Positions 1-35,615 are shown, numbered from the stretch's first letter. The stretch: 40,238 bases of DNA from Candidatus Undinarchaeales archaeon (GCA_030753015.1 JASMDC010000032.1:1-40238); one strand, 5' to 3'. Notes: a model not told the origin generated them from the sequence alone. Made by a program: numbers and translations.

Positions 1-3000
1 GGATGCCGTGGGCGTGAAGTCGCACTCTCCCTCGCACGAGGTGTAGTCGATGTTGTCACCGGCCTCGCAGTTCCCGCGGAGGATGTTACACTCGGGGTCA
101 TCGCCTTCATAGGAGAACGTCTTCGTGTCCTTGTCGTCCCCGCCATGGAGCAGCTCGATCTTCCTGAGCTTGGTCGTGCATTGGCTCGTGAACGAGAAGT
201 GGAGCGGGTCGCCCTTTGAAGGACAGATATTGAGGTCGAGGTCGATGGGCGGATCATAGATCGCGATCTGCGGTTTCTGGACCTTGATATAGAACTCGTC
301 GCATTCGCACTGTTTCACATCGAACGCGCAGGTCGTGGGATCACAGGTGATCTCGCCATCGTTATTCACGTCCCGTGCGATGAGCACCTTGTGCTGGCCT
401 CTTGCGGTATCGGCCGGTATTTGGAAAGAGCAGGTCTGCTCGGTACGGTACTGGAGACCGACGCCCACGCTACATGTAGCTAACGGATCGCCAGCTATCT
501 TGTCCAAGTAGACATATGCCTCTCCTGCAGTACAGGTGACGCGATACTTGAACGATATGGTCGCTCCTGGGCAGAGCTCGGTTATCTCGGGCGAGTCGGT
601 GAGGTCGAGCTGCGGATCGACGACGTCGAAGGACTCGTCCCCCATACCGAGGCGCCATCCATCGGCGGATTTTGCAGAGTTGGCAGATCCGAACTTGCAG
701 ATGCTGGACATACGTGAATCGGAGTACTGGTTGCACCCCCATCCTCTGTCTCCCTCTCCGCCGCAATCGGGGCAAGCGTAGTGGCCGCCGCTGTCGCACA
801 CACGGGTAACGGAGTCGACGTACACCGTGTAAACGCCCGGAGCATTGGGGGCAGGATAGTTCGCCGGTGTCTCGATGTCCGAAGTAGCAGTGCTCCACAC
901 CATGCACTTCGCGCCGCTGCTCTTCCTCAGGAAAGCGATGACTCCTGGATTGCTCACCTTCTTCGTGCAGGAGCCGTCCTCGCACAGCATGCATTCCGTG
1001 TTGGAGAGGTGGCGTGACGATTTGCCTCCCATGTCGATGATGGGTGAGCGATGCATATCGCAGACAGGGTTGGTCCCGGCCTCAGGGATGTCACCGCACC
1101 GTGAGATGCGAGCGTACGTGCTGAAGTAGTGCTGGGTTCCGCCGTGTCGCGAACCGTCGCTGCAGACAACGTTGTACGCTTGAAGGGCCGCCTTGAAGTA
1201 GATGATGTCCCCGGGACAGATCTGTCGTCCGACCTTGTCAGGATCGATGTCGAAGTTCATGGTCACCGTCCCCTTGACACCTGTCGACTGTGCAGCACCC
1301 CAGGTATGGCCACAAGTATTCATCGTACCGCAAACGGCAGCGATGTTCACCTTGCAGGTCCCTGTCTTGCATGAAATGCTCTCATCGTCCCCGGTCCCCT
1401 TTACACGAACAGCGAAGCCTTGGGAGCCCGTGGACGTCTTCGGATCAACGGACAACCGGCACCACGGATTGGCATCCATGTCGTCGAGGAACACACCTCC
1501 GGTCTCCTCGGCCGTCGGTCCCGGACAGGTACCCTGCTTTTTACCGCCCATATGAATATCGAACTCAGAGCCCTTGGGGTAGCACTTGCTGTCGACCTTT
1601 ACGTAGATAGATGCTGCAAGGCATGTATCTGTCGGGAACACGTAGAAGTCGATGTTCCTTCCGGAGACCGGGAGGTTCAGGGCAGGCGACGTCCTGTAGT
1701 ACTTACCCGCGCCGTCCCCTTCAGCGACGATATTGATCGAATCGCCATCGAAGTCAGACGGGATGAGGAACTCGACATAGCCGTTCTCATCGGGATTCTT
1801 GACGTTCCCGATCACAGTGTCGCCGTTGAGCATCTTGACATTGACCCGGTTACCCCTTGTAACCCCCTGGCCCCATTCATCAACGACGCGTACCTTGAAG
1901 GACACACCACGGCACCCGCTGTCCGGTGTCTCGGCAACCGTGATGTCGCTCTTGAGCTTGACGGTCTTATCAGCGATGGACGAGCCCGTCTTGAAGGCAA
2001 CCACCTTGAGCTCGCCGACGAAATACACCATGTCCATGACGGCTTCGAGCTCGGAGTCCCAGTTCAGGATTCCATTCTCGTTCGTAACGCCATAGCTCAT
2101 GACGCGCTCATTGCCCTCGTTGTTGAGGGCCCGGACCTCTACAGAGGCCTCTGGGACACCGACGCCACCAGCGGTCACTTCGAACACGAGCTTGCTCTTG
2201 GGGTGGATCTCTGACACCTCTTCACTGGAGATGTCAAGGACGCGAAGCTCAATGAGTGGCACGTCGACAGCTATGAACTTCTCCCATTGGTAGAAAGCGC
2301 CGAACTCATCAGTCGCGTTCGCGACTAGGCGATAGTTACCTTGATCTATGTTGTGGAGCTCACAGTGGAGGGACGGATCACGTGACCAGCACTGGTGTAT
2401 CACAGCGCCCTCAATGTTGTGGAGGGCCATGTGCGTCTCCACGAGCTCGTCCCCCTCGGGGTCCTCCCATGTGAGGTCGATATCGAACTTGGTGAGCATA
2501 TCGCCCCCTGCTTGAGGGATCTGTTTCATGTGCTCTTCTTCGTTGCCCGCATCGATGATCTTGGGTGGATTGTTCTCGATCATCAACCGGACACCAGTAC
2601 TGTCCCACTGGTCCTCACCTGAGTCGATGAAGATGCCACAGCCTTCGATGGGAGTGCCATACGGATCGAACCTGAAGTAATGGTAATCGTGAGTGAGCTC
2701 TATCTCCTCCACGATCTTCTGGTCGCCCATGAGCGGTTCACATGTGTTGAGTATCTCTTCATCACCCCTGAATAGGACCCAGATGTCACCAAGTTCCTCC
2801 TTGCAGTCGAGGTTCTGGGTGTAGTTGTTGCTCTGGCAGAGGGCGACGGTGTAAGCGACGGGGTACTCACAGTTCGTGGAGGCATAGTACCACACTTCAG
2901 CCTTGTGGTTTCGGTACTTGGTGGTATTGAACATGACCCTGACTTTCTTGGGATTGCCCGAGGGATCGTGGTGCTGGGGGTCGTGGGTGATGCAAGCTTC

Positions 3001-3243
3001 GTTCTTGGTATAGCGTTTCCATGTACACGGATCCTCGGGTTCCCCTGGTTCAAGGGAACAAGCAGCATCGATTACGGCTCCAGTGATGTTGTTATCATCG
3101 GGATCGTTCTCATTGAGAAGGATGTAGGTACTTTTCTCCCGAATACCCGGTTCATCGCCGGCCGCAACGGCGTCGAATGTCGCCAATACGAACGTAACGA
3201 CCGCAAATACCATTAAAAATCTAGTAATATCTCTATTTTTCAC
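1..3243 (-). CDS. Very large secreted Cys-rich surface protein (3' end outside window)
   Basis: I translated the minus strand from 3243 to the window edge and found one uninterrupted frame of 1,081 codons with no stop, so the C-terminus lies outside. The GTG at 3243 gives a complete signal peptide (MKNRDITRFLMVFAVV..., cleavage near AVAA). In-frame alternatives are TTG at 3252 or 3255 (a GGTGG-like site lies just upstream) and ATG at 3213. The mature protein is rich in Cys and Asp/Glu. The first 500 residues look like beta-sandwich modules, including an invasin/Big-1-like stretch around VEVRALNNEGNERVMSYGV. The later half carries many paired Cys, CxxC motifs (YACPDCGG) and a Ca-loop-like DVNNDGEI. 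No membrane segment is seen in this part. It is divergent from the surface-protein cluster at 3334. The role is inferred to be an S-layer or adhesin-type exoprotein; I do not recognise a named family. Confidence 0.85.
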   Translation of the reverse strand, partial: MKNRDITRFLMVFAVVTFVLATFDAVAAGDEPGIREKSTYILLNENDPDDNNITGAVIDAACSLEPGEPEDPCTWKRYTKNEACITHDPQHHDPSGNPKKVRVMFNTTKYRNHKAEVWYYASTNCEYPVAYTVALCQSNNYTQNLDCKEELGDIWVLFRGDEEILNTCEPLMGDQKIVEEIELTHDYHYFRFDPYGTPIEGCGIFIDSGEDQWDSTGVRLMIENNPPKIIDAGNEEEHMKQIPQAGGDMLTKFDIDLTWEDPEGDELVETHMALHNIEGAVIHQCWSRDPSLHCELHNIDQGNYRLVANATDEFGAFYQWEKFIAVDVPLIELRVLDISSEEVSEIHPKSKLVFEVTAGGVGVPEASVEVRALNNEGNERVMSYGVTNENGILNWDSELEAVMDMVYFVGELKVVAFKTGSSIADKTVKLKSDITVAETPDSGCRGVSFKVRVVDEWGQGVTRGNRVNVKMLNGDTVIGNVKNPDENGYVEFLIPSDFDGDSINIVAEGDGAGKYYRTSPALNLPVSGRNIDFYVFPTDTCLAASIYVKVDSKCYPKGSEFDIHMGGKKQGTCPGPTAEETGGVFLDDMDANPWCRLSVDPKTSTGSQGFAVRVKGTGDDESISCKTGTCKVNIAAVCGTMNTCGHTWGAAQSTGVKGTVTMNFDIDPDKVGRQICPGDIIYFKAALQAYNVVCSDGSRHGGTQHYFSTYARISRCGDIPEAGTNPVCDMHRSPIIDMGGKSSRHLSNTECMLCEDGSCTKKVSNPGVIAFLRKSSGAKCMVWSTATSDIETPANYPAPNAPGVYTVYVDSVTRVCDSGGHYACPDCGGEGDRGWGCNQYSDSRMSSICKFGSANSAKSADGWRLGMGDESFDVVDPQLDLTDSPEITELCPGATISFKYRVTCTAGEAYVYLDKIAGDPLATCSVGVGLQYRTEQTCSFQIPADTARGQHKVLIARDVNNDGEITCDPTTCAFDVKQCECDEFYIKVQKPQIAIYDPPIDLDLNICPSKGDPLHFSFTSQCTTKLRKIELLHGGDDKDTKTFSYEGDDPECNILRGNCEAGDNIDYTSCEGECDFTPTAS

Positions 3244-3279
3244 TCTAGCCAACAATACCACCCCCGAAGATTGGACTTC

Positions 3280-5217: not shown

Positions 5218-8200
5218 ATGGGGTCGTTCGGACGAACCCTCGCGGTGGTCGTGGTCCTTGCGAGCATTATCGTCCTGCAAGTAAACGCCTTCGAGACCGA
5301 TCCTCCGTACCGTGAGATACTTCGTGGATTAGCAGCTTCGAAGAGCGATGATGACCTATGTGGACCACCTGACGCTTGGAGCTGCAACATGGGCTATTTC
5401 CAGGCGCGGATGATATCGGCTTACGCGGCTCTCTACCAACAGACCGGGAACACGACGCATCTTGTGTGGATGCGCAACTTCGTTGACACGAAATCCTCTG
5501 GCACTACTGGATGCGGACCTCCAGACGATTGGCAATCTGCAGAGAAGGACCATAGTTTCGTCATGGCGGCCTACGCGCATGCTCTCGAGGTGGAGGGTGA
5601 CGCTGCACGTCGTACACAGTATTCCGGATACCTTGAACAGTTCGCCTCACATGGATCACAGGATGCAGGGACTCCAGGCCCTCATCAGGTCGGTAACGAC
5701 CACAGCGCCATGGTGATAGGCTACCTCCGTGCTTTCGGCCAGACCGGGAGCCAGCCTATCAAGACCCACGTCGACAAGCTCGGTGTCAACGGGTGTTCAG
5801 GTTTGGGTCCGGACCCACAATCACCTGCTTTCTACAGGTGTGACCATACTCTCCTTCAGGCCGAGTATATCATCGGGTACGCGGACGGGTACGAGGCGAA
5901 GGGGGACGCGACCCACCTCAAGCGGCTCAACGCGCTCATGGCGGCCGGCTCGAACGACACGATCTACGGATGTAACGTGGTCGATGATTTCGACTGTGGG
6001 GACAACGAATATCAGGCGCTCATGATGCTCGCATCGGCCCGCGCCTATCAGGTAACACAGAATGTAAGCCATCGGGCAGCCTTGGACCATTTCGCCTCGA
6101 CTGCAGCCGCTGCAGGCGACTGTGGCCCCCCTGATGATTGGACGTGCATGGGTTCCTATTACCAGAACATCTATCTGATATCGTACGTGAACGCGTACCT
6201 CGTAACAGGGAACGATACCTATCTCGGTTGGGCGAACGATATCGCAGAGAAGCTCGTGACCTATTGTGACGGGTACAAGTGTGATACTAACCAGGGTATC
6301 GTCATCATGGCGGCCCAGGCGATCTCGACCCTCTATCCGGACATTAAGCCCATCAATGCAACGCTCAATGACACGGCGAGCGGTCGCGTCGTCCGTCTCG
6401 CTGCACGGGCAAGCGATCCAGCAAAGGGGACGTACCGTGCGCTGCACTATGCACGCCTTGACTATTCGGACATAGCTCACGGGCTCACCTCATGCACGTG
6501 CAAGGTTGACGGAGGGGCCGCATCGGACTGTCTTTCAGGGTCATTCGCATCGGTCGACCTACCACATCCTGGCAATGCGACGATGAACATCAACATCACA
6601 TGTACCAATGCTGCGGGACGCAAGACCTCACGTGTCAGTTCTGTGGTCGTGAAGGAGGATGTGCTCGATATATCCTTCGATAACGTAACCTCTCCCGTCA
6701 ATGAAGCGTTCAATGCCACTGGAACGGTGAACGATGTCGGTTCGCTCGCGTGCACGGCACATCTTGCTCACGAAGGTACTTCCAAGGAGAACACGATGCA
6801 TGCCGGGAGCGGAAAGTTCACCATCGAGGTCGCCCCCACCACGGACGGTGCGTATGAGCTGACCATCTCATGTTCCGCATCAGGGTTCACGACGACGAAC
6901 GTGTCGATCCCCTTCACGGTGGACATCACGCCTCCGGACTTCGACCTTTCTATCGTCGCCACCAACGACGATCCCTCCGTGAACATCACCATTTCTAACG
7001 CTGCGGACGCGACGTCAGCGGTTAATGCTTGCTGGACCACATTGAACGCCACCAACCTTGGTATCAAGGTCCCGTCACAGGGCACGGTCGCATGGAACGC
7101 CTCGGTAGCTTGGGGGTCTCACACGATCGTGGCAAAGTGCAACGACACGTCTGGGAACGTCGGAGCACGGAACTCCACGTTCTGGGTGAACAAGACCGAG
7201 GTCGCTCCAACCCCCACGCCGAACGTGACGGTCGTACCCAACGCCACTGCAACACCCACGCCGAACGCTACAGTGGTGCCCAACGCAACAGCGACTCCAG
7301 CACCCACCCCACCACCTGGCACCAAGACCATTATCATCAAAGCGGACCCGACATCGTTCTGTGGGTATACCGTCCACCTCAATGACATTGCACCAACGGG
7401 CGACACGGCCTTCCTCGAAGTATTGGAACCGGACGGCGCCACACACGTGTTCCTGGTCAACTATACGTCCGTGCAGTCCGGTATAGAGCCCAAGTCCCTT
7501 GAACTGGGTAACTTCTCGATCACTGTGTATCGGGACTGCGTAAACACGGACGCGACCGCGGAGGTCTATCTATCGATGGATGGAGGATGCTCAACGCCCA
7601 CGCCGTCAGCATCACCCACGCCAACTCCCGAGGCAACAAGCACAGCAACACCTTCACCCACTCCAGAAACGAGCATGACCCCAATACCCATCACGGTCGC
7701 AACACCGGTACCGACAGCCACCCCGTTACCTACTCTCGAACCACCAGAACCTGAAGGGACACCGACCCCGACGCCCGTTCCCGACCTGTCCACGTCGCCT
7801 ACGCCCGAGCCCACGATGCGGACGGAGGTCGTAGAACTCGAACTCCATCTTACTCCCACTCCCGCCCCCATACCCGAACGGTACGAAGAACTTGTCTTTC
7901 AGCTCAGCACAGTGGAGCGTGAGAAGCTCGATGCCAAGGGGAGGGCTATCATAGAGATGGCCCAAGAGGCTCTGGATGAAGCACGACAGTTCGAGGCCGA
8001 GGGCGATATCCAGATGGCACGGATAAGATATGGGCGTGCAGAAGTCCTGATCGAAGGTCTAAAGGACAGCCCGGAGGATGATTGGTCCAACCTCGGTTAT
8101 CTCCTTCTGTTCATCTGCCTCCTTACGATGGTGGGTATCGGTCTCCTCTACAAGTCCACGATAAATACCATTGAGACCGAGGGGGATGCGTACGAGTACA

Positions 8201-8550
8201 GCTCGTATTACGCTAACAGTACCGGCTCACCGTTCGTGTGGACCGAGCGTGGTTGGGAGATGGCAGAAGAGGGCGGGGAGCAGACTGCTGAAGCGACCGT
8301 CGTGAGCGAGGATGCGGCCGGACAGGAGCAATCAGTTCAGTCGACGGACCAGACAACTGATGTGGCCACGGAGGCGGTCGTAGCGACCGATGCCGGGTCA
8401 CCTTATGGTACATCCACCTACGACTCATATTACGCTGCACAGTACGGCTACTACTATGCGTACCGTGACACGGGCGAGGTCCAGGCCACTGCTGAAGCGG
8501 ACCAGGAAAACGGTGACCAGACGCCCGCGGAGCAATCCCAACAAATATAA
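5218..8550 (+). CDS. Surface protein: CGPP-W helical repeats, Ig-like domain, Thr/Pro stalk, membrane anchor
   Basis: 1,110 residues. Signal peptide (FGRTLAVVVVLASIIVLQVNA) first. Residues about 25-380 are helical repeats marked by CGPPDAWSC, CGPPDDWQS and CGPPDDWTC, each followed by helices such as YFQARMISAYAALYQQTGN; the pattern suggests an alpha/alpha toroid. Residues about 400-660 hold Cys-containing Ig-like modules ending in GSHTIVAKCNDTSGNVG. Two Thr/Pro/Asn stalk segments flank a small beta domain (about 700-790). A charged helical hairpin (about 895-945) precedes the single membrane helix (about 960-980). The roughly 130-residue cytoplasmic tail is acidic, with Tyr-rich ends (YDSYYAAQYGYYYAYRD). 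The next gene encodes a paralogue. Carbohydrate or protein binding at the cell surface is inferred from architecture; I know of no named family. Confidence 0.85.
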   Translation: MGSFGRTLAVVVVLASIIVLQVNAFETDPPYREILRGLAASKSDDDLCGPPDAWSCNMGYFQARMISAYAALYQQTGNTTHLVWMRNFVDTKSSGTTGCGPPDDWQSAEKDHSFVMAAYAHALEVEGDAARRTQYSGYLEQFASHGSQDAGTPGPHQVGNDHSAMVIGYLRAFGQTGSQPIKTHVDKLGVNGCSGLGPDPQSPAFYRCDHTLLQAEYIIGYADGYEAKGDATHLKRLNALMAAGSNDTIYGCNVVDDFDCGDNEYQALMMLASARAYQVTQNVSHRAALDHFASTAAAAGDCGPPDDWTCMGSYYQNIYLISYVNAYLVTGNDTYLGWANDIAEKLVTYCDGYKCDTNQGIVIMAAQAISTLYPDIKPINATLNDTASGRVVRLAARASDPAKGTYRALHYARLDYSDIAHGLTSCTCKVDGGAASDCLSGSFASVDLPHPGNATMNINITCTNAAGRKTSRVSSVVVKEDVLDISFDNVTSPVNEAFNATGTVNDVGSLACTAHLAHEGTSKENTMHAGSGKFTIEVAPTTDGAYELTISCSASGFTTTNVSIPFTVDITPPDFDLSIVATNDDPSVNITISNAADATSAVNACWTTLNATNLGIKVPSQGTVAWNASVAWGSHTIVAKCNDTSGNVGARNSTFWVNKTEVAPTPTPNVTVVPNATATPTPNATVVPNATATPAPTPPPGTKTIIIKADPTSFCGYTVHLNDIAPTGDTAFLEVLEPDGATHVFLVNYTSVQSGIEPKSLELGNFSITVYRDCVNTDATAEVYLSMDGGCSTPTPSASPTPTPEATSTATPSPTPETSMTPIPITVATPVPTATPLPTLEPPEPEGTPTPTPVPDLSTSPTPEPTMRTEVVELELHLTPTPAPIPERYEELVFQLSTVEREKLDAKGRAIIEMAQEALDEARQFEAEGDIQMARIRYGRAEVLIEGLKDSPEDDWSNLGYLLLFICLLTMVGIGLLYKSTINTIETEGDAYEYSSYYANSTGSPFVWTERGWEMAEEGGEQTAEATVVSEDAAGQEQSVQSTDQTTDVATEAVVATDAGSPYGTSTYDSYYAAQYGYYYAYRDTGEVQATAEADQENGDQTPAEQSQQI
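7210..7293 (+). repeat. Two 42-bp tandem repeats encoding a sequon-rich stalk
   Basis: Two adjacent 14-codon units encode TPTPNVTVVPNATA and TPTPNATVVPNATA. Each carries two N-X-T sequons plus Thr/Pro positions suited to O-glycans. The DNA copies differ mainly at third positions, so the repeat is not freshly duplicated and its protein sequence appears constrained. Confidence 0.8.
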
Positions 8551-8552
8551 AT
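8542..8552 (+). promoter_or_regulatory. TATA box at the end of the upstream gene
   Basis: AAATATAAAT spans the stop codon of the preceding gene and is centred about 26 bases before the ATG at 8574. That spacing predicts a leaderless transcript starting at this ATG and argues against the in-frame GTG at 8568. Confidence 0.5.
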
Positions 8553-8573
8553 GCCCCAGACCAATATGTGGCT

Positions 8574-11500
8574 ATGAAGAGGGTGTGGTATCTTCTTGTT
8601 CTAGCGATTCTGTTCGTGGTTGTAATACCTCTGGCCACCTCAGGACAGGAGGTGACACACGATTATAAGCCATTCATGGAGCGGGTGGCTGCTTCTCGTA
8701 CAGGATCAAACTCATGCGGTCCGCCGTCCTCTTGGGACTGTAGTCACGGGAACGTCCAAGCGGACCTCATCATGGCACACTCGAGCCTTTACAGGCAGAC
8801 GGGTGAGCAGAAGTACCTCGATTGGATGCACGCTTACGCCGACCATAGTTCGACCAATGAGCAGACGGGTGCAGGCCCCGGGGACTACCGTAGCGGGGAG
8901 AAGGACCATGGGTGGTACATGGTCGGATACGCTATGGCCTACCTCGCTGAACCCGACTCCAGTAAGAAATCGACCTACAGCTCCTACCTCGATAATTTCG
9001 CGAACCAGGGTTCGATCGACGCTGGTCCGGTCAGCGGTGGCCAGGTAGGGAACGACCACGTGGCCATGGTCATCGGCTATTCCATGGCCTATGGTGCTGC
9101 AAAGAGCTCGACGGTCAAGGGGCACTTCAGTGGATTCGGCACACAGGAATCGGGCATCGGGTCCCGTACCCATGGTGAGTACATGCTAGGGTACGCTGAA
9201 GCGTATCTCGCTTCGGGTGAGAGCGGGTACAAGTCGACCCTCATCAGCCTGGCGAACACACGGCCCGCCGATCCCAACATCGGGTGCACGACCGGCCATG
9301 ACTGCCACAACGATGAATGGCAGGACCTCATGATCCTCGGTCTCGCCAAGACCTATGAGATAACCGGGACCGCCACTTACAAGGACGAGATGGTAGCGTA
9401 CGCCAACGTCAGGCCGCCCGATTCCTGCGGACCTCCCGACCATTGGGACTGCGGCGACAGCACCCTCCATGCGAACTCTATATTCGCCTATTCCAAGGTA
9501 TACCTCACAACGAACGACCAGACCTATCTCGGCTACCTCGACCAGCTGGGCGACCGTGCCATTAACGGCGCCCCGTGCGAGGTCGTGGGAGATGAGGTTC
9601 ATTGCTCGAGCGGTACGGGCCGGTTACTCATGGGCCTCCAGATCCTTGCCACCATCTACCCATACTTCGGTGAGATCTCGGTATCTCCGGAGACCGCCTC
9701 GACGGACCTGACCCTCTCGGTATCGGTACCTGTCGGTGACCTACCCAAGGTAGAGATCACCGCAGGATACTTCGGTCGATATGACTTCTCCGGCTGGCAG
9801 CAAGGGGTCGCATCCTGTGACTGCTGGCTCGGCGAAACGAGTTATGCAAGCTGCCTGAGCGGTTCTTCCGCAGGATTCCAGGTGGCCACGCCACAGGCCG
9901 GGAACCACACGATCCGAATCGCCTGTACGAACAAGGCGGGTTATACGAACACGCTCACATCCTGGGTCGTCGTATACCCCGATGGGATCCACATCGAACA
10001 TGACGACCTATCCTATGTGAACACGACGACCCATCAGGTCGAGCTCAACTACACCTCTGCCTACGAGGTGGACTGCTCGGCGACATTGATCGGTCCTTCC
10101 GGCACGACGAACCCCCCTATCTCCGGGGACGGAAAGAACGTCGGTACAGCCGCCATAGTCCTCACGCTCTCGCCCGACGGTGAGTACTCGCTCGACGTCG
10201 CCTGCCAGAACAGCCAAGGGAAACAGGCGTCCTTCAACCTCGCGTTCACCGCCGATATTGTCGCACCCGCGACCACGATCGCAGTATTGGAGGAGTACAA
10301 CGTCCAGCCCATCACGGTCGGCGCCACTCAGATAGGTGATGCAACGGCGGGGATCGATACCTGCCGAATCTTCGTTGACGGGGACCTGAGTGGTACGAAG
10401 GCGCCAACTGACGGTTCCGTATCTTGGGATCTCGACCTACCGGAGGCCAGCTACCATTTCAAGATATGCTGCTACGATAAGGCCGGGAACGAGGGATGCA
10501 CGGAGAAGATCTCACAGATCGACCTCACACCTTCGGCAACGCCCCACTCGACCTCTATCGGATTCACGACAGCCACACCATCTGCGACACCTCCGCCTTC
10601 AGGGACACCCTATCCGACCCTCACCCCTCCGCCCGACGTGGTCGTCACGGCCACGCCGGCACCGACACCCGCAGGCCCCTGCGAGCCACCGAGCGAGGAT
10701 GCCATCATCACAAGATGGAACGAGACACATGGAAGAGATTTAACCGATCTCGTCACCGCCAACAAGGCGGCGACGGTGACCCTCCCGTCACGTGATGCAG
10801 AAGGATTCGCATCCGCCCGGGAAGAGGCTGCAGCGCTCATGCGCGTAATGAACGACGAGTACCTCAAGCATTCGTGTGATGTGGGTGTTTTCACCGTTGT
10901 GTTCACAGATGCGGAGACCTCGTACACATCGACACGTGGAGCGGTCGAGTATCTCGAAGCAGGATACATAACCGATGAGCAGTTCATCAACGCCATGCAG
11001 GAGGCGGGCCCAACACCCTTGCCCCCTGAGGAGGTGACCACACCCACCCCGCCACCGGGCGTATCGATCGCACCCACACCGACGATCGGTGTAGTGATAC
11101 CTACAGAGGGTCCGAGCCCTACACCACGAGAAACGGGCGGACTTAGCGGGCTTTCGACACCGACACCAGAACCGTCCGCGACAGCAGAGCCAACAAAGGT
11201 ACCCACATCAGCACCGACCGATACACCGACAGCCACCGCGAAGCCAGGACCCACGGAGCAGGGGAGCTATGTGGCGACCATAACCCCCGGTGCAACAGCA
11301 GGGCCTACGAGCAAGACTGGTGGCGACTCGACCCCACCTCCAACACCCACGGTAGAGCCCATCAAGATCGACGAGGTGGATGTCGACTTCGATCCTGAGA
11401 TGGATGATGTTCGAAAGGAGGATACTGCTAAGGACAGCGTCGCCGAGGCGCTCGAATCCATCGCAGCGACCCGTGGTGAAGGTCTCGATACTAACGAGGC

Positions 11501-12008
11501 CGAGGAATACATCAAACTCGCGGAGGATCGTATCGCCTCAGGGCAGTACGAGGAAGCCGTGAAGTATGCATGGGTGGCCAAGCGTCGTGCGGACGAGGTG
11601 GCCGGCAGGATCTCAGAGCCCTGGAGCTATGTCAACGAGAAACAGCGCTCATCGTTCCCTTTCCAGATCGACTCGACGCTCGCGGCCCTTCTTGGCGGTG
11701 CGCTGATAGTGATGATCGCGGGTCTTGCGTTCTTCGTGAGAGCACAGGCCGGTGGTGTCGACAGCGAGCTCATGGATTACATAGACGGACGACGTGAAGA
11801 CGGGTTCGATGACGATGAGATCGTTAGCGCTCTTCTCGATGCGGGCTATGATAAGGAGGAGATATACGCTGCTTTCGGTCTCGATGTGCCCATAGAGATC
11901 GGAGAGGAGGCCGAGGTGGTCACAGAGGAAGAAGGGGCCGAGGTCACGGAGAGCGTAGAAGAAGTGGATAGCGAGGACTATGTCAGTGGCGAGCCAAAAG
12001 AAGAGTGA
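8574..12008 (+). CDS. Surface protein paralogue: CGPP-W helical repeats, long Thr/Pro stalk, membrane anchor
   Basis: 1,144 residues from ATG 8574 (an in-frame GTG lies two codons upstream). Signal peptide KRVWYLLVLAILFVVVIPL. The N-terminal half is clearly paralogous to the 5218 product: SCGPPSSWDCSHGNVQADL, then NEQTGAGPGDYRSGEKDHGW, then SCGPPDHWDCGDSTLHANS, each followed by the same helical pattern. Ig-like modules follow (about 370-640), then Thr/Pro stalks (about 650-700 and 815-935) around a small folded segment. A helical hairpin (about 950-1020) leads to the membrane helix (about 1036-1056, LLGGALIVMIAGLAFFV). The roughly 88-residue cytoplasmic tail differs from the paralogue: it contains FDDDEIVSALLDAGYDKEE, a short helical motif, and ends in a Glu-rich stretch. 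The 3' end overlaps the HD-hydrolase gene by 29 bases, which suggests coupled expression. Confidence 0.85.
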   Translation: MKRVWYLLVLAILFVVVIPLATSGQEVTHDYKPFMERVAASRTGSNSCGPPSSWDCSHGNVQADLIMAHSSLYRQTGEQKYLDWMHAYADHSSTNEQTGAGPGDYRSGEKDHGWYMVGYAMAYLAEPDSSKKSTYSSYLDNFANQGSIDAGPVSGGQVGNDHVAMVIGYSMAYGAAKSSTVKGHFSGFGTQESGIGSRTHGEYMLGYAEAYLASGESGYKSTLISLANTRPADPNIGCTTGHDCHNDEWQDLMILGLAKTYEITGTATYKDEMVAYANVRPPDSCGPPDHWDCGDSTLHANSIFAYSKVYLTTNDQTYLGYLDQLGDRAINGAPCEVVGDEVHCSSGTGRLLMGLQILATIYPYFGEISVSPETASTDLTLSVSVPVGDLPKVEITAGYFGRYDFSGWQQGVASCDCWLGETSYASCLSGSSAGFQVATPQAGNHTIRIACTNKAGYTNTLTSWVVVYPDGIHIEHDDLSYVNTTTHQVELNYTSAYEVDCSATLIGPSGTTNPPISGDGKNVGTAAIVLTLSPDGEYSLDVACQNSQGKQASFNLAFTADIVAPATTIAVLEEYNVQPITVGATQIGDATAGIDTCRIFVDGDLSGTKAPTDGSVSWDLDLPEASYHFKICCYDKAGNEGCTEKISQIDLTPSATPHSTSIGFTTATPSATPPPSGTPYPTLTPPPDVVVTATPAPTPAGPCEPPSEDAIITRWNETHGRDLTDLVTANKAATVTLPSRDAEGFASAREEAAALMRVMNDEYLKHSCDVGVFTVVFTDAETSYTSTRGAVEYLEAGYITDEQFINAMQEAGPTPLPPEEVTTPTPPPGVSIAPTPTIGVVIPTEGPSPTPRETGGLSGLSTPTPEPSATAEPTKVPTSAPTDTPTATAKPGPTEQGSYVATITPGATAGPTSKTGGDSTPPPTPTVEPIKIDEVDVDFDPEMDDVRKEDTAKDSVAEALESIAATRGEGLDTNEAEEYIKLAEDRIASGQYEEAVKYAWVAKRRADEVAGRISEPWSYVNEKQRSSFPFQIDSTLAALLGGALIVMIAGLAFFVRAQAGGVDSELMDYIDGRREDGFDDDEIVSALLDAGYDKEEIYAAFGLDVPIEIGEEAEVVTEEEGAEVTESVEEVDSEDYVSGEPKEE

Positions 12009-13245
12009 CAAGGTCGTCCGAGACCCCATCCATGGGAACATCTCCGTACATCCGGAGGAGCTCAGGCTCATCGACACACCCGTGTTCCAACGACTTCGCC
12101 GAATAAAGCAGCTCGGCTTCGCGTACCTTGTGTTCCCGACGGCCGTGCACACACGTTTCGAGCATAGCCTCGGTACGATGCACATCGCCTCACGCATAGC
12201 CGAGCATCTCGCTCTTGACACGGTCCCGCTCCTGCGCACCGCTGCCCTTCTCCACGATATCGGCCACGGGCCGTTCTCCCACTCGTCCGAGCTCATCGTC
12301 GAGACCTACTTCAAGGAGCATCATGAGGCAATCACCGGTGACAAGATACGACAGCCCGACGTCGCCGGCGCCATCGAACTTGCCGGGCTCGATGTCGAGG
12401 AGGTCGTTTCCCTGGCCACGGGAGCTGGATCGACCTACCAGAACAAGATCATCTCGAGCGAGATGGATGCCGATATTCTCGACTACATGCTACGCGACTC
12501 GTATTATACGGGCGTCGCGTTCGGGACCGTCGATCTCGATCGGATCATTTCGAGCCTCGAGGTATGGAACGACCGGCTCGTGATATCGGGCAAGAGCCAG
12601 TACAATGCAGAGAGTCTGCTCGTTGCACGCTACCTCATGTGGCCTGTCGTGTACCTTCATAGGACCGAATGCATCGCCGACTGCATGCTCGTCAGGGCCA
12701 TGGTTCGCGCGGTCGAGGACGGCTCGCTCTCCGCTCAGGAGATCTATCGCATGGACGACTACGAGGTCACCGCATACCTCCTGTCTCTGGATGGATATCC
12801 GGCGGACATCATGGGGCGCCTCAACGACCGCAAGCTCTTCGTCCAGCTGGACACCAAGGGCAGGAGCGACCTCACTCCTGAAACACTAGCTCGGCTCATC
12901 GCCCTGCGGGAGGATCCGCAACGAAGCCTTGCTATGGAGAACGCCCTTGCCGACGAGCTCGATGTTCCCAGAGGGTACCTGACAGTCGACGTGCTCAAGC
13001 CTCCTCAGAAGTCGGTCCGCGATTCACCACGTGTCATCCCCGATATCCTCGTGCGGCACGGAGAGGAGGTCGTCCGCATCGACCGGCTCTCGCGTCTTGC
13101 ACGCGCGCTTACAGCAGGGACGTGGGACCACTGGTTCTGTTCTGTGTACGTCGCGGACGAGCACGCGGACAGCGCCAAGGACACGATAGTAAAGAAGGCC
13201 ATTAACTCCCCGCTGCAATATTTAAGTGATTGCATCCTCTCGTGA
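11980..13245 (+). CDS. HD-domain phosphohydrolase (SAMHD1/dGTPase-like superfamily)
   Basis: 421 residues, cytosolic. The N-terminus has the family signature DPIHGNISVHPEELRLIDTP and FQRLRRIKQLG, then the metal-binding set: His57/His62 in HTRFEHSLG, His92-Asp93 in LLHDIGHGPFSH, and Asp in SSEMDADILDYMLRDS (about 163-165). This order matches archaeal and bacterial HD proteins related to SAMHD1 and dNTP triphosphohydrolases, which hydrolyse nucleotides or other phosphoesters. The substrate cannot be read from sequence. The ATG lies inside the end of the upstream surface-protein gene (29-base overlap), so translation is probably coupled. No signal peptide or membrane helix is seen. A promoter for the next gene lies within its last codons. 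Confidence 0.9.
   Translation: MSVASQKKSDKVVRDPIHGNISVHPEELRLIDTPVFQRLRRIKQLGFAYLVFPTAVHTRFEHSLGTMHIASRIAEHLALDTVPLLRTAALLHDIGHGPFSHSSELIVETYFKEHHEAITGDKIRQPDVAGAIELAGLDVEEVVSLATGAGSTYQNKIISSEMDADILDYMLRDSYYTGVAFGTVDLDRIISSLEVWNDRLVISGKSQYNAESLLVARYLMWPVVYLHRTECIADCMLVRAMVRAVEDGSLSAQEIYRMDDYEVTAYLLSLDGYPADIMGRLNDRKLFVQLDTKGRSDLTPETLARLIALREDPQRSLAMENALADELDVPRGYLTVDVLKPPQKSVRDSPRVIPDILVRHGEEVVRIDRLSRLARALTAGTWDHWFCSVYVADEHADSAKDTIVKKAINSPLQYLSDCILS
13215..13225 (+). promoter_or_regulatory. TATA box inside the end of the HD gene
   Basis: CAATATTTAAG is centred about 27 bases before the GTG at 13249. This is the spacing expected for a leaderless transcript of the next gene, even though it lies only three bases past the HD stop codon. 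Confidence 0.45.
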
Positions 13246-13248: not shown

Positions 13249-14184
13249 GTGACCACTCGCGCTGCTATCGGTCTCGCGATCGTCATTATCAGTATCGGGT
13301 GCATGATCATGCTCGCCCCAGGGCCCGAGGAGCCCACCGGCCCCGCACCCACACAACCACCCGGACCATCACCCACTCCCTACATCGATCCCTTCACCCT
13401 CGCGATCACCGAGTGTACTCTCCTTGGCGGAGAAGCGGCGGACCGGTGCCTTCTCAACCGTACCATGGTGATCGGCAACGCATCCATGTGCGGCCTTATC
13501 AACACGACCCTGGTCCATGACTGGTGCGAGCGTGACATGGCGAAGCTACGCCACGAACCTGAGAGGTGTGATGCCGTCGAGACCGAACTCGTCCGAAATG
13601 AGTGCTTCGTAGAGCTTTCCGACCTCACCAAGGATCCGGCCCTTTGTGCCAACATCACGGGCGGCGGTTACAAGGACGTCTGCCTCCAGCGAGCGGTGAC
13701 CATTACCCAGAACGTCTCTCTCTGTAGTGAGATCGTTCGCCAGCGTATGCGTGACGGGTGCTGGTACGACGTGGCGCTTAACACCAAGGAGCCCGGCCTC
13801 TGTGACAATATCAGCGATCCTGCGATCAAGGACGGGTGTATCAATTATGTGGCGACCGTCAGCCTCAACGCCACCCGATGCGTGGGTATCCAGAACGCGA
13901 CCTACAAGGACACCTGTTATGAGTCGCTCGCAAAGCTAACGAAGGTCGGAACGGTCTGTCTCGACATCGGGGATGGCGTGCAGCGTGAGGGATGTCTCGT
14001 GGAAGTCGGGACCAAGACGAACGACGCCGATACGTGCCTTCATGTGACGGACCAGGGGACAAGGGAACGGTGCGTCTACACCGTTGCTCGTGCAATCGGC
14101 GACGGGAGCCTGTGCGAGCACATCACCGATCCTGAGCTTAAAGTTACCTGCACGAGCAGACTTGGCTCCGGGACCGGATCGTGA
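13249..14184 (+). CDS. Exported Cys-repeat solenoid protein, possible lipoprotein
   Basis: 311 residues from a GTG start. The N-terminus is hydrophobic (AAIGLAIVIISIGCMIML). The ISIGC segment could be a lipobox, otherwise this is a signal anchor. A Pro/Thr linker (PTGPAPTQPPGPSPTP) follows. The rest is about nine imperfect repeats of roughly 28 residues with two Cys each, of the form C-x2-I-...-D-x-C-...-A-..., for example DPALCANITGGGYKDVC, EPGLCDNISDPAIKDGC and DGSLCEHITDPELKVTC. Paired Cys at regular spacing suggest one disulphide per helical repeat. There are many N-X-S/T sequons. It is convergent with the GT-C gene, six bases away. Similar Cys-repeat proteins exist in uncultivated archaea; no function is assigned. 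Confidence 0.8.
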   Translation: MTTRAAIGLAIVIISIGCMIMLAPGPEEPTGPAPTQPPGPSPTPYIDPFTLAITECTLLGGEAADRCLLNRTMVIGNASMCGLINTTLVHDWCERDMAKLRHEPERCDAVETELVRNECFVELSDLTKDPALCANITGGGYKDVCLQRAVTITQNVSLCSEIVRQRMRDGCWYDVALNTKEPGLCDNISDPAIKDGCINYVATVSLNATRCVGIQNATYKDTCYESLAKLTKVGTVCLDIGDGVQREGCLVEVGTKTNDADTCLHVTDQGTRERCVYTVARAIGDGSLCEHITDPELKVTCTSRLGSGTGS

Positions 14185-14190: not shown

Positions 14191-15735
14191 TCAGCCACCT
14201 TTTACCTTGAAGAGCCATACATCGGCCCGGATGAACGAATGATGCTCGACCTCGTCGAATCTTTCGTGGAGGAGCGTCATGAAATCGGTCTCAGGCTCAC
14301 GATGGGAACGGACGAACCACACGTACCGCGGAGAGCGCTCGTCAAGCGCAGTGGAAATCCGCTCGACATCTTCGCGAGTGCCTCCCATGAGCTCCACGCG
14401 TCGCGATGAGCCGTGTTGACGGAAGTAGTAATCGAACGAGGTGGCGCTCCAGGTGTGGCCGATGATGAGAGCGTCTGGGTACCGACGGTCGTTGGTGACG
14501 ATGTGTCCGATCGCCTCGCGCACCTGCTCCTTGTAAGGGGTGCCGTAGAAGTCCATACGAAGGACGAGGTCACCGAGGAAGAACGCACATAGCACGGTGG
14601 CGACCAGTGCGAACCTACGTGGATCTGGTACGAGCCTGTCCACGGCTCTGGCCAGAAGGAGGTAAGCTGCCGGGAGGGAGATAATGAGGTTACGGTGCAC
14701 GAGGACCGGATTCGAGACGACGGACACCGTGTACGTGACAAGGAAGGGCAACACCAACCATGCGAGGACGATACCGTCTGGTGACCATGCGAACAGTTTT
14801 ACGGTTCTTAGGTCAATGGGGCCATCGTTCTCTCGAAAGATGACTGCAGCCAGTGATGCGTAGAGGATGCCTACGAGCACCAAGAGATATCGGGAGCGGT
14901 TGAAGAGGAAGTAAAGAAAGGCCGCGAAAGCGAACACAGGCTCACCGGGCCTCTCGATCCAGCTGATGTTCGTCCTTGCACCGAACTGGGCCAGCATGGT
15001 AGGTATCCACGGTGCGAATCCCAAGAACACGATCAGGTACATGGTCATGCTCCTGTGGAGGACCCGTCGGTCCCCGATCGACTTCAAGAACGCCCCGGCG
15101 GCCTGAAGACCCACCATGAGGAGACCGAAATAGTGCGTGTATGCGGCCAGGAGCGCGTATCCACTGTATCCTACTATGTACGCGTTATGTATGTGGCGGT
15201 CCATATCACGCGTCGTCATCAGCTCGAACCAGAACCAGTGGGCCATAGAGACGAACAAGAGCATGAGCGCGTTCCCGCGGGCCTCCTGGCTGAAGTACAC
15301 TGGGCACCAGCATACTGCCGTGAGCCCGGCCGCGAGCAGACCGGAACGACGACCGTAGGTCCTCGAACCGATGGCGTACACGACGAGGACGGTCAACACT
15401 CCGGCCACGGCGGACGGCATCCGCAGATGCCACTCAGTATCACCTACATCCAGAACAACGTAATGGACGAGTACGAGATAGAAGGGTGGATGGACATCAC
15501 GGTACATGGCCTCATCGATGACGGTATCGACATCAGCGAACGATGTACGACGCCAGGTCGCGAGCTCGTCGGACCAAAGGGACTGTGCATCAAGTCCATA
15601 GAAACGAAGGCCGACTCCCAGGAGGAGTATCGCCAGAAGTACTACGCGAGCGGTCGCTGCATTAGTATCACTGGCAGTTCTTTCATCACGTTCGACCAGA
15701 CATTGAACCTCCCGTAAGCATGGGTGACCAAGCAC
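14191..15735 (-). CDS. GT-C fold membrane glycosyltransferase (PMT/ArnT-like)
   Basis: 514 residues with about ten to twelve membrane helices. After the first helix comes GLDAQSLWSDELATW; the acidic residue (DE) in the first extracytoplasmic loop is the typical catalytic position of GT-C enzymes. HPPFYLVLVHY and the SQEARGNALMLLF segment match the GT39/GT83-like family, which moves a sugar from a polyprenyl-phosphate donor to protein or lipid outside the membrane. The next gene, divergent, is a dolichol-phosphate-sugar synthase that could make the donor. The start is uncertain: GTG at 15735 is the only conventional codon before the first helix, but a strong GGAGGT (15712-15707) lies downstream of it. 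O-glycosylation of the neighbouring Thr/Pro-rich proteins is an inference. Confidence 0.85.
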   Translation of the reverse strand: MLGHPCLREVQCLVERDERTASDTNAATARVVLLAILLLGVGLRFYGLDAQSLWSDELATWRRTSFADVDTVIDEAMYRDVHPPFYLVLVHYVVLDVGDTEWHLRMPSAVAGVLTVLVVYAIGSRTYGRRSGLLAAGLTAVCWCPVYFSQEARGNALMLLFVSMAHWFWFELMTTRDMDRHIHNAYIVGYSGYALLAAYTHYFGLLMVGLQAAGAFLKSIGDRRVLHRSMTMYLIVFLGFAPWIPTMLAQFGARTNISWIERPGEPVFAFAAFLYFLFNRSRYLLVLVGILYASLAAVIFRENDGPIDLRTVKLFAWSPDGIVLAWLVLPFLVTYTVSVVSNPVLVHRNLIISLPAAYLLLARAVDRLVPDPRRFALVATVLCAFFLGDLVLRMDFYGTPYKEQVREAIGHIVTNDRRYPDALIIGHTWSATSFDYYFRQHGSSRRVELMGGTREDVERISTALDERSPRYVWFVRSHREPETDFMTLLHERFDEVEHHSFIRADVWLFKVKGG

Positions 15736-15760
15736 TTTTATTCTTTCGCGCAGGAGATGA
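15736..15760. promoter_or_regulatory. Shared divergent promoter and plus-strand ribosome binding site
   Basis: CTTTTATTC (15735-15743) reads as a TATA-like box on both strands. The plus strand has GGAGATGA (15753-15760) five bases before the ATG at 15765, which sets that start in place of the in-frame ATG at 15720. On the minus strand the box would start a transcript near 15714, which is downstream of the GTG at 15735. Confidence 0.4.
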
Positions 15761-15764
15761 AGAC

Positions 15765-16481
15765 ATGTCCGCTGATTGGACGACGCTGTCCATCGTGCTC
15801 CCGACCTTCAACGAGCGCGAGAACATCGTTGGGCTAATCGAGCAGCTAAGAGAGCTCTTCGAGGAGCGGGGCTATCGAGGAGAGGTCATCGTTGTTGACG
15901 ACGACAGTCCCGATGGTACCGGACAAGCGGTCGAGGAACTAGCGTCCGGCTGGAAGAACGTTCGGCTCGAGACCCGTCGCAACGAGCGCGGCATCGGCTC
16001 TGCGCATGCAAGGGGGTACGACCTCTCAAAGGGCGATGTCATCATCACCATGGACGTTGACGGTTCCCATGACGTCGCCGACATCCCACGGCTCCTCGAC
16101 CGGCTATCGGACGGGTACGACGTGGTCATCGGCTCTCGGTACGTTCGTGGCGGTGGGACGGACAAGCCGTTCGCCAACCGGCTCATCAGCCTCCTGGGCG
16201 GGCAGTACGCCAGGCTAACTCTGCGTCTGGGCGTCGTCGACAGCACCAACGGGTTCAGGGCGTTCCGACGCAAGGTCTGGGAGCGCATCCGTCATCACCG
16301 GTACAGCGAGCGCAACGTCTTTCTAATAGAGTTCCTCTATCATGCACGAAGGTCGAGAGCACTGATGACCGAGGTGCCCGTGTTCTTCCGAGAGAGGACC
16401 TTGGGCGAATCAAAGACACCCGTGCTTCAAGAGAGCGTGAAGGCATTGATGCTGCCGATACGGCTGCGCCTGGGAGGATAG
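15765..16481 (+). CDS. Dolichol-phosphate mannose synthase-like glycosyltransferase (GT2)
   Basis: 238 residues. GT-A fold: SIVLPTFNERENI at the N-terminus, IVVDDDSPDGTG (nucleotide binding), then the metal-binding MDVDGSHD around residue 95. RNERGIGSAHARGYDLSKGD and DVVIGSRYVRGGG follow the dolichyl-phosphate mannose/glucose synthase pattern. No C-terminal membrane domain is present, so this is the short cytosolic-face type. The reaction would be NDP-sugar plus polyprenyl phosphate giving polyprenyl-phosphate sugar, the donor for GT-C enzymes such as the divergent neighbour. The start is set by GGAGATGA five bases upstream of ATG 15765. The RfbH-like gene follows 11 bases after the stop, then the epimerase gene, forming a three-gene operon. 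Confidence 0.9.
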   Translation: MSADWTTLSIVLPTFNERENIVGLIEQLRELFEERGYRGEVIVVDDDSPDGTGQAVEELASGWKNVRLETRRNERGIGSAHARGYDLSKGDVIITMDVDGSHDVADIPRLLDRLSDGYDVVIGSRYVRGGGTDKPFANRLISLLGGQYARLTLRLGVVDSTNGFRAFRRKVWERIRHHRYSERNVFLIEFLYHARRSRALMTEVPVFFRERTLGESKTPVLQESVKALMLPIRLRLGG

Positions 16482-16492
16482 ACGGTGAGGTT

Positions 16493-17689
16493 ATGGATCC
16501 CATTCGCGTAGGTGACCTGATACTCGGTGACGAGGAACGTGAGGCGATCGGCAAGATCATCGATTCGGGCCGGATCTCGGAAGGTCCGTTCGTACGTAGG
16601 TTCGAGCGCGAGTGGGCCAAGTACGTGGGTACCCGTGAGTGCGTTCTGCTCAACTCGGGGACATCGGCCCTTATCGCAGGTATCGCAGCCCTCAAGGTAG
16701 GAGAGTATATCGACGGTACGAGGGTAGTGACCACTCCTCTCACTTATGTGGCGACCTCAAACGCCATCATCCTCAACGGTCTAGAACCGGTGTACGTTGA
16801 CGTGGACCCAGAGACATTCATCATAACTCCTCAGACAGTTAGTGCCCTGCTCGAGGAAGAGGACGATCCCTCATCCTTCGCCATGCTGCTCCCGGTACAT
16901 CTCATGGGCTACCCGTGCGACATGGACGGGATGGACGCTGTTGTCAAGAAGTACGGTCTGGTGACCTTCGAGGACTCGGCACAGGCCCACGGTTCACGAT
17001 ACAAAGGTAAGCGGACGGGATCCCTTTCGCTCCTATCTGACTTCTCTTTCTACATCGCACATAACATCCAGGCGGGCGAGCTCGGAGCGTTAGTGACCGA
17101 CGATCCCAACATCGCACGGCTCGTACGCAAGATAAAGGCGAACGGGCGGGTATGCGACTGCTCCGTATGCGTTCGGTCCACGGGCGAATGCCCGCACCTC
17201 CGGGATGAGGACGATCCTGATCCGCGGTTCACCCACGACCTCATCGGCTACAACTTCAAGACAATGGAGTTCCAGGCCGCGATAGCGCTCTGCCAGCTGC
17301 AGAAGGCTGATTGGATACTCGAGCGACGCCAGGAGAACGTCAGACGTCTTAACGAAGCCCTCGAACCGCTGGCCGACGTGCTGGCGACACCGCCCTTCTC
17401 TCCTGACGTGAGCTACCTTGCCTACACACTCGTGATAAAGGATCCAAAGAGGTTCCCACGTGCCCGAATTTGTCGTGAAATGGAGCATGCAGGCATCGAG
17501 ACGCGTCCTCTTTTCGGGTGCATACCGACCCAGCAGCCTGCTTATGCATCATACCGCGATCGGTACAAGGGGCGGCTCCCCGTGGCTGAACGGCTCGGGT
17601 CCGACGCCTTCTACGTGGGTTGCCATCAGTACCTTTCCGAAGAGCAACTGGACCATATGGCCTCCACCCTGCGAAAGGTGTTCCGGTGA
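16493..17689 (+). CDS. DegT/DnrJ-fold PLP enzyme, RfbH/E1-like sugar 3-dehydratase candidate
   Basis: 398 residues with the DegT/DnrJ/EryC1/StrS fold: LLNSGTSALIAGIAAL, TTPLTYVATSNAIILNG and EDSAQAHGS. At the place where aminotransferases of this fold carry the PLP-binding Lys (SFYxTKxITxGEGG), this protein reads SFYIAHNIQAGELGA, with His190 at the Lys position. The same Lys-to-His change defines ColD and the E1/RfbH 3-dehydratases. Residues 221-233 then show CDCSVCVRSTGEC (Cys221, 223, 226, 233), in the loop where RfbH/E1 enzymes carry Cys ligands of a [2Fe-2S] cluster. A PLP plus Fe-S dehydratase acting on an NDP-4-keto-6-deoxyhexose is therefore likelier than an aminotransferase. An E3-type reductase partner is not in the window. 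The stop overlaps the next gene's GTG. Confidence 0.85.
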   Translation: MDPIRVGDLILGDEEREAIGKIIDSGRISEGPFVRRFEREWAKYVGTRECVLLNSGTSALIAGIAALKVGEYIDGTRVVTTPLTYVATSNAIILNGLEPVYVDVDPETFIITPQTVSALLEEEDDPSSFAMLLPVHLMGYPCDMDGMDAVVKKYGLVTFEDSAQAHGSRYKGKRTGSLSLLSDFSFYIAHNIQAGELGALVTDDPNIARLVRKIKANGRVCDCSVCVRSTGECPHLRDEDDPDPRFTHDLIGYNFKTMEFQAAIALCQLQKADWILERRQENVRRLNEALEPLADVLATPPFSPDVSYLAYTLVIKDPKRFPRARICREMEHAGIETRPLFGCIPTQQPAYASYRDRYKGRLPVAERLGSDAFYVGCHQYLSEEQLDHMASTLRKVFR

Positions 17690-18582
17690 GCGGACAGCGT
17701 GTGCTCGTCACAGGGGCCGACGGGCTCGTCGGTACACATCTATCCCTCGTGCTCGAGGAGAGCGGTCACGAAGTGGTCCGCTGGGTCTTTGCGAAGGATA
17801 TTCCAGGTCATTCCAGAGTGGACGTCCGCGACCGGGAAACCGTCATTGATGCCTTGCAGGACATCGATGCGGTCGTCCACCTCGCCGCCATAACCGTTGA
17901 GTCCGAAATGGCACGTGATCACTCATTGGGCTTCGATGTCAACATAGGTGGTACCGCGAACGTACTCGAGGCCATGCGCCGTCGTGACGTCCAACGGATC
18001 GTGTACCTTTCCTCTCAGGTCGTGTACGGTAACCGGCCGGGTATCGATGAGGATGACCTGTCAAGCATCGAGCCCCTCTCACCCTATGCAGAGAGCAAGT
18101 ACCTCGCCGAGGAACTGGTCCGTGGCTACGGCCGGGCCTATGGGATAGATATCACCGTGCTCCGCTCATCACACATCTACGGACCGGGGCAACGATCGGG
18201 GGCGCTCGTCCCGCTCTTTCTCCATCGGGTACTCGAGGGTTCAGAAGTAAGGTACGGGAACGACGTGACAAGAGACCTCATATACGTCGTTGACGTCGCA
18301 CGTGCGATCTCAGCGATTCTCCCCGGAGCTCCATCCGGATTGTACAACGTCGGAACGGGCATCGAGACGCGGATCAGTGACCTCATAGATACACTGGCGA
18401 AGGTTAGTGGCAAGCAGGTCTCACGGGTCCATGATCGATCATTAATCCGTGACAATGCGCTGGAGCGCTGGCGCGAGCTAGCTAAGATCGATCGTATCAC
18501 CGATGAGGTGGGATGGAAACCGCAGACTTCGCTCGAGGACGGCCTCCGACGGTTGCTCAAGCACATCAATGATGACGCCTGA
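17686..18582 (+). CDS. NAD-dependent nucleotide-sugar epimerase/dehydratase (extended SDR)
   Basis: 298 residues from GTG 17686, which overlaps the upstream TGA (GTGA) and begins just before VLVTGADGLVGTHL, the Rossmann GxxGxxG motif. The catalytic YxxxK is in SPYAESKYLAEELV, with the usual Ser in VYLSSQVVYGN. ITVLRSSHIYGPGQ and the C-terminal VSGKQVSRVHD region fit the GalE/RmlB-like extended SDR family. These enzymes epimerise, dehydrate or reduce the hexose of an NDP-sugar using bound NAD(P). The position behind the RfbH-like enzyme suggests a modified deoxyhexose pathway for surface glycans. The exact reaction cannot be told from sequence. It is convergent with the 18624 gene. Confidence 0.9.
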   Translation: MSGQRVLVTGADGLVGTHLSLVLEESGHEVVRWVFAKDIPGHSRVDVRDRETVIDALQDIDAVVHLAAITVESEMARDHSLGFDVNIGGTANVLEAMRRRDVQRIVYLSSQVVYGNRPGIDEDDLSSIEPLSPYAESKYLAEELVRGYGRAYGIDITVLRSSHIYGPGQRSGALVPLFLHRVLEGSEVRYGNDVTRDLIYVVDVARAISAILPGAPSGLYNVGTGIETRISDLIDTLAKVSGKQVSRVHDRSLIRDNALERWRELAKIDRITDEVGWKPQTSLEDGLRRLLKHINDDA

Positions 18583-35092: not shown

Positions 35093-35182
35093 CGGGATCT
35101 CACCTAAAGGACCGTTCTGTGGATGACCATGGAAGGCTTCGGTGCGACTACCATGATCACTGTGATGCACAACCAGGAAACA

Positions 35183-35195
35183 CCTTAAAAAACTT
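35183..35195 (-). promoter_or_regulatory. TATA box of acs copy 1
   Basis: On the minus strand AAGTTTTTTAAGG predicts a start near 35164 and a leader of about 70 bases, which ends in GGTGAGAT. The acs copy 2 promoter has a matching TTTTAAGG box at a similar distance. Confidence 0.45.
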
Positions 35196-35333
35196 TTGAT
35201 ATTGCGCCCATTACAGATATCATTGATAAGATTACTGGGCTTATTAATTAGTAATTGAAAACAATAGACGACGTTTCAATAGAAATTGATCTGTAGGCGG
35301 ACATCCTCTCGAACGTACCAGAGATGCTCTCGT

Positions 35334-35480
35334 CTACGCAATCGTACCGGGTCTCACGGATAGGTCGATGGTGAACGACCTGTACAGCTTCGCGTTCCAG
35401 GTGAGGACGCTCTCCCCATAATCTCGGGTCCCCGAGCATCTCCCCGTGAACTCAAAGGCACCATGGAGCACGAGGTCCAT
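35334..35480 (-). pseudogene. Short coding-like remnant between the acs copies
   Basis: In the 445-base gap between the two acs genes, the minus strand has a 48-codon frame from ATG 35480 to a TAG at 35336-35334. It reads MDLVLHGAFEFTGRCSGTRD then YGESVLTWNAKLYRSFTID, and the frame stays coding-like for about 15 codons upstream of the ATG, back to a stop. Third positions are strongly G/C, as in real genes here, and the peptide is not of shadow-frame composition. It may be the 3' end of a gene truncated by the acs duplication, or a small intact gene. No family recognised. The rest of the gap holds only the acs copy 1 promoter and the copy 2 hairpin. Confidence 0.3.
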
Positions 35481-35565
35481 GATCTCTTGAAAGGTATCTT
35501 TCGCGGGATCGGGGACCGGAACGTCCCGTCGCCACTAATTACGACGATACACCCTGAAAGATAGG

Positions 35566-35597: not shown

Positions 35598-35615
35598 ATA
35601 GAGCTTGCTGTCCTA

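Follow-up and report, generated by a model that had tools for sequence, protein, structure and literature searches.

Toroid-headed surface proteins of an Undinarchaeales archaeon and their HD phosphohydrolase neighbour

In a 40,238-nucleotide stretch of DNA from Candidatus Undinarchaeales archaeon (GCA_030753015.1, JASMDC010000032.1:1-40238; here called the window), two large genes for surface proteins, A and B, are followed by a gene for an HD-domain hydrolase. The original prediction saw in them a coupled surface signalling or defence system, with a receptor outside the cell, a single membrane helix, a short interaction motif inside and a nucleotide-cleaving enzyme. Do A and B work with the HD enzyme, and if not, what are they for? 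The host genome amounts to 3.85 Mb in 117 contigs with an estimated contamination of 5%; the other species of the class examined have 0.6–1.1 Mb. Archaeal-type genes in the host DNA include one for a Cpn60/TCP1 chaperonin; a search of the host genome for archaeal SSU rRNA found none.

The three genes of the prediction were placed correctly, but the run to which they belong is longer, with five plus-strand genes between 3334 and 14184 separated by intergenic gaps of 12, 17, -29 and 3. The 29-bp overlap between the second paralogue and the HD gene holds up: the sole later start of the HD frame ahead of its conserved VVRDPIHG is a GTG at 11986, which still lies inside B, so that the overlap (23–29 bp) is real and unavoidable. 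On the other strand, a further gene, truncated where the contig ends, points away from this run. The features are as follows.

1–3261, minus strand: gene encoding a large secreted, Cys-rich protein (at least 1087 aa); the frame is still open at the contig start
3334–5205, plus strand: 623-aa surface protein with signal peptide, C-terminal TM and weak MG2/arrestin-like beta domains
5218–8550, plus strand: toroid surface protein A, 1110 aa, ATG start
5287–6330, plus strand: toroid domain of A, profile match 3.1e-148 with its own sequence inside the profile
8568–12008, plus strand: toroid surface protein B, 1146 aa, GTG start
8634–9662, plus strand: toroid domain of B, modelled with 6–7 helical hairpins (pLDDT 81.6, pTM 0.85)
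11763–11897, plus strand: tail motif of B, SELMDYIDGRREDGFDDDEIVSALLDAGYDKEEIYAAFGL, a generic-looking juxtamembrane helical motif
11980–13245, plus strand: SAMHD1/EF1143-like HD phosphohydrolase, 421 aa, HD and HD_assoc_2 domains
13249–14184, plus strand: 311-aa Cys-repeat protein with signal/TM and TP linker, the last gene of the run, without a Pfam family

The Cys repeats of this last protein follow the pattern C..I....R..C....A, and similar repeats occur in a membrane protein that carries the tail motif of B (L090, behind the motif) and in an open reading frame 5' of the toroid gene on C84 (L051:7285-7914). Next to the surface-protein run, 14191–18582 holds PMT_2, GT2, DegT aminotransferase and NAD epimerase genes; these glycosyltransferase and sugar-nucleotide genes plausibly serve surface glycosylation. 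Farther along, 33104–37628 on the minus strand encodes two adjoining acetyl-CoA synthetase-type paralogues of 688 and 670 aa.

A and B are indeed paralogues of about 1,100 residues, as B finds A at E 1.4e-96 in a genome search; their head domains are 35% identical. Both are built in the same order: a signal peptide, a Cys-loop helical head of ~340 residues, Ig-like modules (in A, a Pfam match to Big_13 at 2.4e-4), a Thr/Pro-rich stalk at about residues 640–900, a single C-terminal TM helix (~959–978 in A, ~1037–1057 in B) and a cytoplasmic tail. The tails differ, as was claimed, and are unrelated: that of A is Tyr-rich and disordered-looking, that of B acidic with a UBA/RecX-like motif. The CGPPxxW mark by which the heads had been recognised is present in both proteins (residues 48, 99 and 302 of A; 50 and 287 of B), but it is really a two-cysteine loop, C-G-P-x(2-4)-W-x-C, which precedes inner helices and reaches 5–7 repeats at most, in the C84 and C62 paralogues. 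NCBIfam has no name for A or B, PHROGs returned for them just one unnamed family, over the stalk of A, and every Pfam score on the two heads fell under its curated cut-off (GH127, 18.0 against 24.9; GH88, 15.3 against 26.6). This side of the prediction is supported: A and B are anchored at the surface, have a helical toroid as their head and belong to no curated family.

The assignment of the HD-domain hydrolase is solid, with Pfam matches to PF01966 (4.4e-14) and to PF19276 (4.8e-39; 134.5 bits against a cut-off of 23.1, residues 184–403). Its catalytic residues are intact (H61 in HTRFEHS, H92-D93 in HDIGH, D165 in MDADILDY), in register with the motif of 2hek and 2q14, and its nearest solved relatives are 2hek (E 9.6e-52), 2q14, EF1143 (2o6i, 7.1e-37) and SAMHD1. 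EF1143 hydrolyses dNTPs (PMC12186491). From these sequence matches, the protein is best read as a SAMHD1-like dNTP triphosphohydrolase or a closely related phosphohydrolase, with dNTPs as its presumed substrate. In three classmates (G005, G008 and G009; loci L072, L073 and L074), the HD gene adjoins genes for SHMT, ThyA (thymidylate synthase) or DHFR, which points to dNTP metabolism. Of 87 archaeal genomes of good quality, 66 carry this common gene, nearly always with no toroid gene. A search of GTDB r220 contigs for relatives gave one bacterial locus, from Salegentibacter flavus.

Could B, by way of its DDDEIVSALLDAGYDKEE tail, pass a signal to the HD hydrolase whose gene overlaps its own? 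The overlap and the same-strand run favour such a scheme, and HD dNTPases can be defence effectors, CloA in Clover being an example (PMC12265719). PADLOC gave a partial match of the HD protein to a dGTPase model (residues 28–114 to positions 46–129 of 395), and none of its models picked up A or B or either flanking gene; nor did Pfam recognise a CloB-like nucleotidyltransferase among the genes scanned. The distribution of the two genes speaks strongly against coupling. HD was found in 76 of the 101 genomes searched, against toroid matches in 3 of the 101, and not one of 20 HD neighbourhoods that we read directly, four of them from classmates, contained a toroid gene. A wider search with the toroid profile matched 13 of 393 other archaeal genomes; the profile, used in both searches, derives from host sequences and may therefore miss distant toroid genes in other genomes. 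Real counts may be higher, but in the 20 neighbourhoods read directly such missed genes are unlikely to hide an HD adjacency. Four of these 13 genomes are without HD. The other nine have it on a contig different from the toroid gene's or, where the genome is a single contig (G027, G068 and G178), at a distance of about 57 kb or more. The two come closest in G068, where the toroid gene occupies 446–450 kb and the HD relative at 389 kb is a weak one. Outside the window, no HD gene was seen near the five further toroid genes of the host genome or those of the 13 other archaea, and since HD is single-copy in the host, its other toroid genes have no HD partner of the same family. Homologous receptors without an HD gene nearby had been named in advance as an outcome that would refute the pairing; this is what the 13 other toroid genomes show, and the pair was not seen to recur.

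The tail of B gives the same answer. It is acidic and carries an LMDYI..DGFDDDEIVSALLDAGY motif, which had been proposed as a short interaction motif for the enzyme. With a profile of four tails, we searched the host genome and 100 other genomes, and found ten occurrences in the host, spread over eight proteins (B and seven others), as well as matches in 14 of the 100 other archaeal genomes. Most carriers of the motif are small membrane proteins whose architectures are unrelated, and it may stand at either end, which argues against an HD-specific dock. Single members weakly match the UBA, RecX_HTH1 and RepB_primase_C models, and the motif seems to be a generic helical one, cytosolic and of UBA/RecX type. 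Taking together the lack of recurrence, the abundance of HD without toroids, its thymidylate-cycle neighbours in classmates and the generic tail, we consider the receptor-HD signalling model mostly refuted and its truth very improbable. The HD gene is probably a common, independent neighbour of A and B rather than their partner. At most it shares a transcript with the surface genes; it is co-located and possibly co-transcribed, and its place within the five-gene same-strand run would allow co-regulation. That a signalling system is unsupported spares further effort on this idea.

What, then, do the heads of A and B do? An AlphaFold2 model built from an alignment of five paralogous heads (A1) has a mean pLDDT of 81.6, a pTM of 0.85 and 6–7 hairpins. 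In VIA-align, it resembles most closely a LanC domain (Z 23.3), followed by GH47 (20.8), AGE (~18) and GH76 (17.6), and Z values of 17–23 cover 265–316 residues of known toroids; Foldseek matched it to AGE at E 1e-5. The predicted head is an (alpha/alpha)6 toroid, a closed ring of six helical hairpins. It is unusual to find such a toroid as a stalked surface head, here one for which neither Pfam nor NCBIfam has a curated model.

The fold neighbours, which are mostly sugar enzymes, raise the main rival to a binding function: the toroids may be surface carbohydrate-active enzymes of GH76, GH47 or AGE type that act on envelope glycans. Also consistent with this are the GH127 and GH88 matches, sub-threshold as they are, and the glycan-processing genes downstream at 14–18.6 kb. 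A profile of 23 toroid domains searched against the PDB found GH76 mannanases best (E 6.5e-9), via short repeat matches, but the profile of A and B alone matched no chain at E<=1. Over the 23 domains, the columns conserved at 75% or more include ones of Cys, Gln, Tyr, Gly and Trp, besides a few of small or hydrophobic residues, while Asp, Glu and His stay below that level in every column; a glycosidase-type carboxylate pair common to the family is thus not apparent. A carboxylate pair has been proposed for GH76 (PMC4321491), and no adjacent acidic pair of this style is conserved in the 23 domains, a comparison in which the GH76 register is uncertain. EKDH and GNDH motifs at the starts of inner helices are common to A and B and missing from the other members; kept in these two alone, they suggest that the A/B pair could be catalytic or metal-binding. 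We regard an enzymatic role for the toroids as rather unlikely. The same columns argue for binding over catalysis, as Cys, Gln, Tyr, Gly and Trp are retained where acidic residues and His are not.

The distribution of the family also bears on its role. The host genome has five strong toroid copies (two on C43 and one each on C84, C62 and C95) and two divergent ones (C33 and C52), while none of nine other species examined in its phylum has a toroid gene. A search of GTDB r220 contigs with full-length B found no relative. In nine of the 13 other toroid genomes, 18 domains belong with A1 to a single family (hhalign probability 99.7); two of the 13, G383 and G292, have weak matches, which are probably to generic six-hairpin proteins. 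Several divergent paralogues in one genome, single TM anchors and varied tails would also suit structural, S-layer-like components of the envelope, and the repeated two-cysteine loops would suit rigid extracellular parts. The patchy occurrence of toroids in other archaea is unlike that of a clade's S-layer protein, however, and in nanohaloarchaea and relatives the toroids are paired with giant adhesin-like proteins, so we find a structural rather than a recognition role improbable.

Within the host genome, the toroid genes have recurring company. The C62 locus, which has no HD gene, combines a toroid gene with a gene for a 1112-aa relative of the Cys-rich protein of the window, directly beside it, and with one for a paralogue of the 623-aa MG2-like protein (31% identity over 544 aa), no more than about 5 kb off; the relationship of the Cys-rich proteins was found by genome search and by blastp (E 6.8e-21) and was missed by phmmer. 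The recurring set is therefore a toroid protein, an MG2-like membrane protein and a large Cys-rich secreted protein. A full-length Cys-rich paralogue on C106 (L153:6525-13406) has 2293 aa with 116 Cys and finishes at the C terminus in TAPGTG-hydrophobic-RKRD, and its N-terminal half is 56% identical to the protein of the window; no toroid gene was recognised in the 20 kb read at this locus. We also noted propeller-like proteins on C62 (L052:9544-11475) and C52 (L055:3419-5602), matching each other at E 8e-37, each near a toroid-type gene.

In other archaea, the company is different. In seven genomes (families f21, f102 and f89), the neighbour of the toroid gene encodes a homologous giant surface protein; the two genes are in tandem in G192 and divergent in G027, G178, G068, G320, G231 and G302. 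Those of G027, G178 and G068 (L131, L141, L129, L142, L134 and L143) are directly adjacent, head to head. The toroid proteins beside giants have two toroids, Ig-like modules and a TM anchor. In four genomes, the giant open frames span 8891 (G027), 9433 (G178), 8592 (G068) and 7869 codons. Giant SPEARE-type proteins are described for Ca. Nanohalovita BNXNv and Ca. Nanohalococcus SVXNc in PMC10266531, and our frames fit the proteins named there, that of G027 being close to BNXNv_0298 (8,880 aa) and that of G178 to SVXNc_0300 (9,409 aa). A term search of that paper returned no mention of a toroid neighbour. The window has no SPEARE-type giant, and a search of the host genome for a homologue gave weak propeller or Ig-like matches only. 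Separately, the propeller-like protein on C52 weakly matches a SPEARE-type giant (E 2e-6).

Based on the fold, the conservation, the architecture and the neighbours, we lean, with modest confidence, towards A and B being members of an adhesin- or receptor-type surface family that belongs to an adhesion gene set, with the toroid as a mainly non-catalytic binding head and the HD enzyme unrelated to it. A and B would be single-pass archaeal surface proteins in which Ig-like modules and a Thr/Pro stalk hold out the toroid, itself made of helical hairpins that two-cysteine C-G-P-x-x-x-W-x-C loops connect. The mouth of the toroid barrel may be ringed by the Trp and Gln residues with which inner helices begin, and the ligands of the head may be glycans or glycoproteins, either from the envelope of the cell itself or from partner cells. 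The family would act within the set of toroid, MG2-like TM protein and large secreted Cys-rich protein, while in nanohaloarchaea and relatives its double-toroid homologues are genetically paired with giant SPEARE-type proteins. The tails of A and B may be generic cytoplasmic segments for anchoring or interaction, and the HD enzyme would control the nucleotide pool, co-located with the surface genes but not a signalling partner.

A bolder extension of this binding model is that the toroids are the recognition subunit of cell-cell contact machines, with SPEARE giants as partners in nanohaloarchaea and relatives and a different, large Cys-rich secreted partner here, in an organism whose genome is several times the size of its classmates'. 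We offer this idea tentatively, as a minority possibility. If true, it would mean a two-component adhesion module with interchangeable partners across archaea. In any case, the toroid protein beside SPEARE-type giants is a testable candidate partner for host-cell recognition by nanohaloarchaeal symbionts.

Comparison with known systems places each component. The heads of A and B have their overall fold in common with LanC cyclases, GH47, GH76 and AGE epimerases, at about 7–14% sequence identity in structural alignments; A and B differ from these in their CGPxxxWxC loop repeats, surface anchor, Ig-like modules and TP stalk, and no conserved acidic pair is evident in their family. The HD protein resembles SAMHD1/EF1143-like phosphohydrolases over most of its length and has the same catalytic residues, but it sits inside a run of surface-protein genes, an unusual position for such an enzyme. 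As for the nanohaloarchaeal proteins, they carry two toroids each against one in A and B, and the large Cys-rich protein of the window, cut by the contig end, has no significant similarity to the nanohaloarchaeal giants (best E 0.03). They nevertheless combine a homologous toroid (hhalign 99.7%) with Ig-like modules and a TM anchor, as A and B do, and their loci, like the window, have a divergent gene for a large surface protein next door.
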